64,000 bases of DNA, from contig DXGH01000012.1 in the NCBI GenBank assembly GCA_019114005.1, positions 19,249 through 83,248 on the forward strand, written 5' to 3'. The DNA comes from Candidatus Acetatifactor stercoripullorum. Lineage in GTDB: Bacteria > Bacillota > Clostridia > Lachnospirales > Lachnospiraceae. Shown piece by piece: positions 21,532 to 23,952 of the stretch. The notes beneath the pieces are model-generated. The model was not told the DNA's origin, made no database searches, and saw only the letters and a list, made by a program, of their open reading frames with translations. Within the stretch, counting starts at the first letter, position 1; every line of letters begins with the position of its first letter. The translations under genes and the position numbers were made by a program.

Positions 21532-22038
21532 ATGAACGGAAGGATCAAAAGGAGAGTGCGGAGATTTATCTGTACGGCGCTGGCAGCAATGTTTCTGGTG
21601 TCTGCTCCCTGTACACAGGCCTTGGCCGCAGAGGCGGATACAGGATATGAGGAGGTGCAGGTGCTGGAGGCTTCGGTTTATGCCTTGCCCGTGGATGAGA
21701 ACACCCCTAGCCTGCAGACGGTTTTTGGCAACTGCTTTATCAGTATCAGCGGTAGCGACAGCGGTATGTTGGTAGAGATTCAGACGGAAAGCTTCGGCGT
21801 TTCCTCTGTCATTGGGGTGAAGGATATCAAAATCCAGAAGAAGGTGTGGTATGGCTGGCAGACGGTGGCTACCTCCAGCGGCGGAGAGGTTAGCGGTGTG
21901 AGCAGAATGGGTTGCAGTATTTTGTATGAGGGTGCTGAAAAGGGCGAAACCTACAAGATCACCTGCGTACATTATGCAAATGTGAATGAATACAAGGAAG
22001 GAACCGGCGATACTGGAGCATTTGTGTATAATTATTAA
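21532..22038 (+). CDS. Secreted protein of unknown function
   Basis: 168 aa. The start is ATG 21532, preceded by AAAGGAG; the ORF track begins 75 bases earlier. A signal peptide is clear: RIKRRVRRF, then a hydrophobic stretch CTALAAMFLVSAP and a probable cleavage after QALAAEA. The mature part is about 130 residues, rich in glycine, serine and valine, with VWYGWQTVATSSGGE, and no cysteine pattern beyond two residues. I do not recognise the family with certainty. A possible ECF-like promoter precedes it (GTAATAAAC at 21411, GACATA at 21431), so it may be a target of the neighbouring sigma factor. Confidence 0.7.
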   Translation: MNGRIKRRVRRFICTALAAMFLVSAPCTQALAAEADTGYEEVQVLEASVYALPVDENTPSLQTVFGNCFISISGSDSGMLVEIQTESFGVSSVIGVKDIKIQKKVWYGWQTVATSSGGEVSGVSRMGCSILYEGAEKGETYKITCVHYANVNEYKEGTGDTGAFVYNY

Positions 22039-22535: not shown

Positions 22536-22578
22536 AGTGTCGCAAAATCATCAAATAAGGTGATTTTGCGGCACTTTC
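22536..22578 (+). terminator. Hairpin after the KTSC-like gene
   Basis: AGTGTCGCAAAATCA (22536-22550) pairs with TGATTTTGCGGCACT (22561-22575), 15 pairs with one G-U. The following TTTCGC is a poor T tract, so efficiency is uncertain. Confidence 0.55.
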
Positions 22579-22582
22579 GCGC

Positions 22583-22611
22583 TTGACAGGATGCCTGCAA
22601 TTTGCTACGAT
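22583..22611 (+). promoter_or_regulatory. Promoter of the Rpn nuclease gene
   Basis: TTGACA (22583-22588), 17-base spacer, TACGAT (22606-22611). It overlaps the first codons of the long ORF in the track, which argues for a downstream translation start. Confidence 0.75.
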
Positions 22612-22758
22612 AAAGTTACATATCAGGGAAGGTTCTTAACCGCTTCGGTTGCAAATCCCATGGACAAAATAATAAATAAGGCGGGATGCACGGAAGGGGA
22701 GAGAGCTTTCACCGGACCCTTTGTCTTTGCATCTGCCAAAGTACGAAAGGGGAAAGCT

Positions 22759-23604
22759 GTGGAAAAAAGAAAATTAAAAGAGCTGAATCTGCTGGATGAT
22801 TTTTTGTTCAATACCATGGTAACACATCCGGAAATCGGAGAGCAATTCTGCAGGATATTGCTGGGGGTGATACTTGGAAGAAGCCTTGGAAGATTAGAGA
22901 TCATAGCACAGAGAACTTATTATGGATGCGACACGGATTTACATGGGGCGCGGCTGGACGTGTGTCTGGAAGAGACGAAAGAGAGCGGCAGACAGGGATA
23001 TATCTATGATGTGGAGCCTGGCCTTTATGGGAGGGGCGGTGCGGCAATGGTGTATCCAAGGAGGGTGCGCTTTTATCACGCGCAGATTGATGCGGACAGC
23101 CTCAGGTCTGGTCAGGATTATGCCCTTTTGAAAAATGTGTATGTGATCGTGATTACGCCCTTTGATCCCTTTGGTTTAAACCGGATGCTTTATACGATAA
23201 GGAGAAGCTGTGAGGAAGAACCTTATATGTATTATGAGGACGGGGACCGCACCTTATTTTTATATACCAGGGGCACGAAGGGGGACCCTCCTGAGGAGCT
23301 GGCACAGCTTTTGCATTACATGGAGGACAGCACGGAAGCAAACGCGGTAAATGAAAAGCTGCGCAGGCTTCATGGAATGGTGGAAAGAGTAAAACAGGAC
23401 AGGAAGGTGGCGGTACATTATATGAAAATCTTTGAGAGAGAGCAGATGCTTTTGGAAGAGGGCAGGGAGGAAGAACGTGCCAACACGGAAAGGGAGCGCA
23501 AAAGGGCTGAGACCGCAGAACGTCAGGTTCGGGAGCTGGAGAAGGAGCTGGAGGCTTTAAGGAAGCAGATGCTTTTTCAGAATGCACACGATCAGGAAAA
23601 CTGA
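22759..23604 (+). CDS. Rpn family PD-(D/E)XK nuclease (recombination-promoting nuclease / putative transposase)
   Basis: Member of the Rpn/PDDEXK_2 family, seen in many copies in Lachnospiraceae and linked to recombination or mobile DNA. The typical start KLKELNLLDDFLFNTMV is followed by the nuclease core with DLHGARLDVCLEE and YIYDVEP (candidate D...DxE acidic residues), and a charged coiled-coil tail (about 240-281). GTG 22759 is chosen because AAAGGGGAAAG precedes it and the promoter overlaps the longer frame; this gives 281 aa. The catalytic lysine is not obvious (YDVEPG in place of the usual ExQ), so activity is uncertain. Confidence 0.8.
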   Translation: MEKRKLKELNLLDDFLFNTMVTHPEIGEQFCRILLGVILGRSLGRLEIIAQRTYYGCDTDLHGARLDVCLEETKESGRQGYIYDVEPGLYGRGGAAMVYPRRVRFYHAQIDADSLRSGQDYALLKNVYVIVITPFDPFGLNRMLYTIRRSCEEEPYMYYEDGDRTLFLYTRGTKGDPPEELAQLLHYMEDSTEANAVNEKLRRLHGMVERVKQDRKVAVHYMKIFEREQMLLEEGREEERANTERERKRAETAERQVRELEKELEALRKQMLFQNAHDQEN

Positions 23605-23612
23605 CATAGACT

Positions 23613-23774
23613 GTTTATAAGATAGGTAATTGCGAAACTCGCTCCCTGGTATCAGAAACTGGGCATAATAACCAAAATAAGGGTGACTAGCCACTGCTTC
23701 GGAACCCGTTTTTGGTTATTATGACCGGGTTCTTGACTTTGTCAGCGAGTTTCGTAAACGCCTATGTTTATAAG
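23613..23774. mobile_element. MITE-like element with 9-bp target-site duplication
   Basis: The element spans 23622-23765 (144 bases). Its ends are inverted: ATAGG...CCTAT, then GCGAAACTCGCT (23632-23643) against AGCGAGTTTCGT (23744-23755), and an inner pair CATAATAACCAAAA/TTTTGGTTATTATG. It is flanked by direct repeats GTTTATAAG at 23613-23621 and 23766-23774, as expected for a target duplicated by transposition. It has no coding capacity. It lies between the Rpn nuclease gene and a small membrane protein gene and ends about 15 bases before the latter's ribosome binding site. Confidence 0.85.
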
Positions 23775-23793
23775 AATAAGAAAGGAAAGACAC

Positions 23794-23952
23794 ATGGCAG
23801 ATATTGTGATTGTGGCGGCAATAGCCATTGCAGCGTTTTTTATCATACGAAACCAGCTCCGTCGCATCAGAAAGGGCGGCTGCGGATGTGGATGTGCAGG
23901 CTGCAGCGGATGTGGGGCGGAAAAGAAAAGAAGCCAGACACAGGACAGATAA
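23794..23952 (+). CDS. FeoB-associated Cys-rich membrane protein
   Basis: 52 aa: one N-terminal membrane helix (MADIVIVAAIAIAAFFII) followed by a basic stretch and a cysteine-rich tail GGCGCGCAGCSGCG. This is the layout of small proteins usually encoded beside FeoB, the ferrous iron transporter, but no feo gene is in the window. ATG 23794 is preferred because AAAGGAAAG precedes it. Its upstream region has been replaced by the MITE-like element, which may supply or disrupt its promoter. Confidence 0.75.
   Translation: MADIVIVAAIAIAAFFIIRNQLRRIRKGGCGCGCAGCSGCGAEKKRSQTQDR

Follow-up and report, generated by a model that had tools for sequence, protein, structure and literature searches.

A palindromic MITE of Lachnospiraceae and its partner insertion sequence inserted next to Shine-Dalgarno tracts

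The palindromic element found in the 64,000 nucleotide stretch of Candidatus Acetatifactor stercoripullorum DNA analysed here, hereafter the window, is a MITE, as documented by its copies, by an insertion sequence (IS) with matching ends and by target-site duplications. As a MITE it is ordinary, and what is unusual is its target. A Shine-Dalgarno (SD) tract was located at a nearly constant distance from one end in most copies of both the MITE and the IS. From these sequence comparisons we consider it highly probable that the MITE is mobilised in trans by a TAGG..CCTA IS, the transpososome of which would recognise an SD-like purine tract in DNA. The features of the window are listed in Table 1.

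Table 1. Coordinates of the MITE, its flanks and the adjacent genes in the window.
Feature	Positions	Strand	Basis
MITE, non-coding near-palindrome, 142 bp	23623..23764	+	Ends TAGG..CCTA shared by copies of the same length in other genomes
Target-site duplication, left copy TGTTTATAAGA, 11 bp	23612..23622	.	11/11 identical to 23765-23775
Target-site duplication, right copy TGTTTATAAGA	23765..23775	.	Matches 23612-23622
MITE left end TAGGTAATTGCGAAACTCGCT	23623..23643	+	BLASTN, 21/21 bp against the transposase-3' end of the IS
MITE right end GTTTCGTAAACGCCTA, facing the SD	23749..23764	+	BLASTN, 15/16 against the transposase-5' end of the IS
Hairpin-tip motif GACTAGCCACTGCTTCGGA	23685..23703	+	Found on hairpins with unrelated stems in other Lachnospiraceae; stems covary
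Shine-Dalgarno tract AAGAAAGGA, putative targeting signal	23778..23786	+	SD position recurs in MITE copies and IS
FeoB-associated Cys-rich membrane protein gene (PF12669)	23794..23952	+	Pfam 39.7 bits, cut-off 27; its start codon is 29 nt away from the MITE
Rpn-family recombination-promoting nuclease/putative transposase gene, immediate upstream neighbour; shown as context	22591..23604	+	TIGR01784 47.6 bits, just under the cut-off of 52.1

The MITE and its partner insertion sequence

The window reads GTTTATAAG/ATAGG...CCTAT/GTTTATAAG, and no real open reading frame was found within the element. The original prediction described a non-coding palindrome of 144 bases, from ATAGG to CCTAT, between 9-bp target duplications. 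The palindrome and its flanking repeats are present as described, but the boundaries needed revision. Alignment of the copies gave TAGG and CCTA as the ends of the family, and the window element is therefore 142 bp long with a duplication of 11 bp, TGTTTATAAGA. A BLASTN search of the window genome revealed approximately 18 near-full copies (87-96% identical) in addition to fragments, and the palindrome is thus not a product of chance. Validated duplications were found in 54 of the 90 MITE copies having both ends in the fetched loci, and the perfect duplications across MITE copies were 9-14 bp long with a mode of 11. The duplications were AT-rich and the majority of the copies were intergenic. 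Folded as RNA, the window element formed the expected single long hairpin (-65.7 kcal/mol versus -33.0 for shuffled sequences, z = -8.8). No match to the window was obtained in Rfam at the gathering threshold, where just implausible weak matches with E up to 10 appeared. A weak promoter-like pair, TTGTCA and TATGTT separated by 18 nt, spans the right end of the MITE and the duplication at positions 23739-23768.

The original prediction further held that the element had been moved by a transposase encoded elsewhere, and proposed searching the genome for other copies and for an IS sharing the ends; both were found. The IS was traced on contig C6 of the window genome (G000:C6) via two short exact matches to the first 22 bases of the MITE. 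It reads TAGGTAATTGCGAAACTCGCT...transposase...GTTTCGCAAACGCCTA over 1742 bp up to the end of the contig, which cuts the copy on the transposase-5' side so that its target is unreadable. The MITE and this 1.74-kb IS share 21/21 bp at the transposase-3' end and 15/16 bp at the transposase-5' end, and their interiors are unrelated. Within the MITE, an inner motif, CGAAACTCGCT, was nearly identical at both ends. The adjacent Rpn gene was considered as a mobiliser and found no support, the matching ends being those of a different IS.

Lachnospiraceae IS of this kind are approximately 1.74-1.8 kb long, have the ends TAGG..CCTA and encode a single DDE transposase of some 500 aa. The C6 transposase (501 aa) harbours DUF772 and a DDE domain. 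Among 17 homologues the residues D163, D304 and E443 were invariant, and four cysteines located between the latter two (C350, C378, C398 and C402) were conserved; DUF772 was detected in all 17, DDE_Tnp_1 in 15 and DDE_Tnp_1_6 in 9. The NCBIfam IS1182 model was matched weakly by all 17 aligned transposases (best E 2e-23), and the query, at 82.1 bits, did not pass the curated cut-off of 270. The predicted structure (pLDDT 80) had the Tn5 transposase as its best fold match (E 3e-5), and no relative was found by sequence in PDB. Judged by these models, the transposase is a DDE enzyme with DUF772, distantly IS1182-like and Tn5-like in its predicted fold. Relatives were present in 25 of 397 genomes of the family and 21 of 391 genomes of the class, and no relatives of the IS were found in viral contigs. 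The transposase is also plasmid-borne in Butyrivibrio proteoclasticus B316 and Roseburia sp. 831b (L433, L434), where it is unannotated or called hypothetical.

Position and orientation relative to Shine-Dalgarno tracts

A typical insertion site consists of the 11-bp duplication, a few bases, the tract AAAGGAG(G) and a start codon about 30 nt from the element. With gene starts called by a simple script, 33 of the 34 MITE copies with validated duplications had an SD-preceded start codon no more than 90 nt from one end, and in 28 of these the distance was 25-35 nt; the same procedure applied to intergenic-like positions of the window placed a start codon at 25-35 nt in 5.8%. A second test, independent of gene calls, counted matches of at least 6/8 to AAAGGAGG at offsets of 13-19, a range picked after viewing the flanks; 37 of the 54 MITEs and 22 of the 29 IS had one, relative to 7.7% of random positions. 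The SD consensus used was the textbook one and was not fitted to the flanks examined. Only weak tracts accompanied three MITE copies with validated duplications (L258, L262 and L273), and two IS copies were without a good tract (L373 and L387). This position was invisible in the original prediction, because other copies are needed to see it.

The IS insertions were oriented. Of the readable IS flanks, 25 of 27 on the transposase-5' side contained an SD-like tract, versus 1 of 22 on the transposase-3' side (Fisher p ~1e-10), as exemplified by the flanks TAGAAGATAAATTTGAAAGGAGGAAGTATG (L392), ATGATATATGAAAAATAAAAGGAGAAAAAGCAATG (L389) and TTAGAATATACCCCAGAAAGGAGCCCTCACATG (L202). Where both IS ends were readable, the transposase-5' side was the better one in 18, with one tie. 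The MITE copies displayed no orientation bias (16 sense, 17 antisense), and we infer from the shared inner motif that the MITE inserts either way round because both its ends carry it.

All the insertions analysed are survivors, and selection may play some role in their positions. It is improbable, however, that random or AT-biased insertion followed by purifying selection, which would keep the elements in the short harmless gap before the SD, explains the pattern as a whole. Such a process would agree with the AT-rich duplications and the mostly intergenic copies, as elements inside genes would be lost, but it predicts neither orientation nor spacing and is disfavoured for that reason. It provides no reason for the 18:0 bias of the IS, and the positions are too sharp, with the start of the tract usually 13-19 nt from the end. 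Nor is it obvious that a 1.7-kb IS does less harm beside an SD than between convergent genes, and the spacing was kept also beside terminator stems and a tRNA-like gene.

These last sites, about five insertions at SD-like tracts other than SDs, bear on how the tract may be recognised. Terminator-like stems supplied the tract at L204 (an IS), L265, L235 and L291, and the insertion at L422 adjoins an SD-like tract in the 5' half of a tRNA-Ser-like sequence. A separate subset of copies, those devoid of start codons under loose ORF criteria, comprised five copies only. Since insertions adjoin SD-like tracts in terminators and a tRNA-like gene, recognition of the purine tract in DNA is favoured. 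Targeting via transcription or translation, be it through promoter melting, the nascent leader or the ribosome with its pairing of 16S rRNA to the SD, would have the attraction that SD and anti-SD are natural partners and that leaders are transcribed. It is nonetheless unlikely to be the explanation, given that the terminator stems and the tRNA-like gene are without a ribosome-loaded SD and that no consistent promoter was seen in the flanks read by eye. Insertion at a promoter -10 or transcription start was likewise rejected: a TATAAT was noticed beside the duplication at L013, but no consistent promoter emerged by eye and it was the SD spacing that was constant.

Relatives of the transposase with 32-71% identity across Clostridia displayed the same placement, with duplications of 10-12 bp and different TAG.. 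ends. Because those with 32-50% identity, in other Clostridia families, mostly followed the same rule (L409, L412, L415, L420, L426, L427 and L428), SD-adjacent insertion is likely to be an ancient trait of this transposase family. No IS targeting the SD or the ribosome-binding site was found described in the literature searched, which comprised sources other than ISfinder, TnPedia and most subscription papers.

The insertion mechanism may be depicted as follows: Transposition would be by cut-and-paste, as suggested by the Tn5-like predicted fold. The transpososome would recognise the SD-like purine tract AAAGGAG in the target DNA and make a staggered cut approximately 16 bp upstream of it; in the case of the IS, the transposase-5' end would be turned towards the tract. 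As such tracts typically are ribosome-binding sites, the elements would land in 5' leaders, sparing the reading frame and leaving SD and start codon intact. The nearly identical inner motifs of the MITE would allow either of its ends to face the tract. In the window, the FeoB-associated gene would thereby have acquired a strong hairpin 29 nt upstream of its start.

The downstream gene and the hairpin tip

In ten genus orthologues of the FeoB-associated gene, the SD is preceded by a GAGAAY..TTCTC Fur-type dyad and a hairpin is lacking, and the element was absent from relatives at approximately 70% DNA identity. No Fur-type site was found near the window's gene between positions 21900 and 24200 (21.9-24.2 kb). 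The original prediction had the insertion separating the gene from its original upstream region, which is contradicted by the local arrangement: the Fur-type promoter was already gone. With both copies of the duplication intact and the Rpn stop codon 7 nt before the left one, the promoter was lost before the MITE insertion or independently of it. The hairpin could plausibly have a direct effect on expression of the FeoB-associated gene. Another palindrome, GTGTCGCAAAATCATC..GGTGATTTTGCGGCAC, is located just upstream of the Rpn gene (22536-22575); the first of its arms was found again in L145 and L234.

Within the genus, the element's BLAST relatives have the tip GACTNGCCACYGCNTCGGA in common on differing stems. 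A pattern scan of genome contigs for the tip identified at least 108 loci, nearly all in Lachnospiraceae, the invariance of the tip being partly built in by the search pattern. Stem pairing in 35 ungapped hairpins was 0.83-1.0 versus 0.41-0.64 at most positions when the arms were randomly re-paired; as the set was pre-filtered for pairing (at least 11/14), the evidence is the contrast with re-paired arms and not the absolute figure. No match that would give the tip a function was found. The IS lacks the tip, which is therefore cargo and not a transposition signal of this IS, and our guess is that it is a bound RNA or DNA hairpin.

The same tip was also observed outside the MITE. A second palindromic family in genome G061, with unrelated ends (approximately GGCTGTCGCATGATAGC..GCTATCATGCGACAGCC), carries it at L327, L331, L335, L338, L341, L347 and L353. 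Hairpins with individual stems carry it in G082 and G436 (L325, L333, L336, L346, L330, L334, L343 and others). The latter are mostly in the sense direction, frequently with an SD immediately downstream, and are possibly cis-regulatory RNAs.

A hairpin in the 5' leader could benefit the host by insulating the SD, by protecting the mRNA or by binding a factor at its tip, and the position would then reflect function. The very stable hairpin, the near-invariant tip on covarying stems and the predominantly sense direction of the unique-stem hairpins in the two related genomes (17 versus 4) are in line with this. The MITE copies are nevertheless orientation-neutral, with 16 sense and 17 antisense, and a role as RNA regulatory element is thus unsupported as the reason for their position. 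The autonomous IS, devoid of the tip, shares the same position, and the genus relatives are without the element at the window's gene. We therefore give host benefit little credence as the cause of the position, and retain recognition of the tract in DNA by the transpososome as the preferred explanation.

Comparison with known systems and implications

Tn5 generates 9-bp duplications and has little target specificity. The likeness of the transposase to that of Tn5/IS50 is in fold only, with a DDE core in which a beta-rich insertion separates the second D from the E, at 9-11% sequence identity and a TM-score of approximately 0.33. Correia/NEMIS, ERIC, BOX and RUP elements are short non-coding near-palindromes mobilised in trans and transcribed into hairpins, and in these respects they resemble the window MITE. 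The latter differs from them in its ends and hosts, in its constant position 5' of the SD and in a tip that recurs on unrelated palindromes. REP/REPIN elements with TnpA-REP, having a GTAG/CGTC hairpin foot and a tyrosine HUH enzyme, were rejected as candidates, as the ends here are TAGG..CCTA, the partner is a DDE enzyme and duplications of 9-14 bp are present.

The IS1182 family, which includes IS1272, is similar in its DUF772 and DDE transposase and in the weak NCBIfam IS1182 matches, but the query transposase is far below the curated cut-off (82 versus 270 bits). IS1272 takes the place of inverted repeats, and no duplication results (PMC5678879), whereas the IS described here duplicates 9-14 bp next to SD tracts. 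For the whole IS1182 family, ISfinder lists direct repeats of 2-60 bp (PMC7335449). ISPsy8, ISPpu9, ISPpu10, ISRm22 and ISRm19 target REP palindromes, an insertion that is sequence-specific, directed to repeated extragenic sites and gene-sparing (PMC1525189). Sequence-specific targeting of a repeated, gene-sparing signal is what these IS have in common with the one described here; their target is a repeat element, whereas the target here is a functional signal for translation that most genes possess.

Taken at its widest, the reading is that a widespread IS of Clostridia reads the SD motif in DNA in a fixed orientation and uses ribosome-binding sites as safe harbours, and that one MITE lineage in addition carries an undescribed tip module, shared with unrelated palindromes, constant on covarying stems and probably binding a common factor; we give this combination about an even chance. 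If the SD targeting is true, the IS would be the bacterial equivalent of transposons homing to safe upstream sites, and its signal would be one that most genes have. This would account for the ability of insertion sequences to spread through compact genomes while leaving genes unbroken, predict where they land, and provide a transposase for tagging 5' leaders with the reading frame kept whole. It would also raise the question of how a transposase recognises a ribosome-binding site. Separately, the conserved tip points to a putative hairpin-binding partner in Lachnospiraceae.
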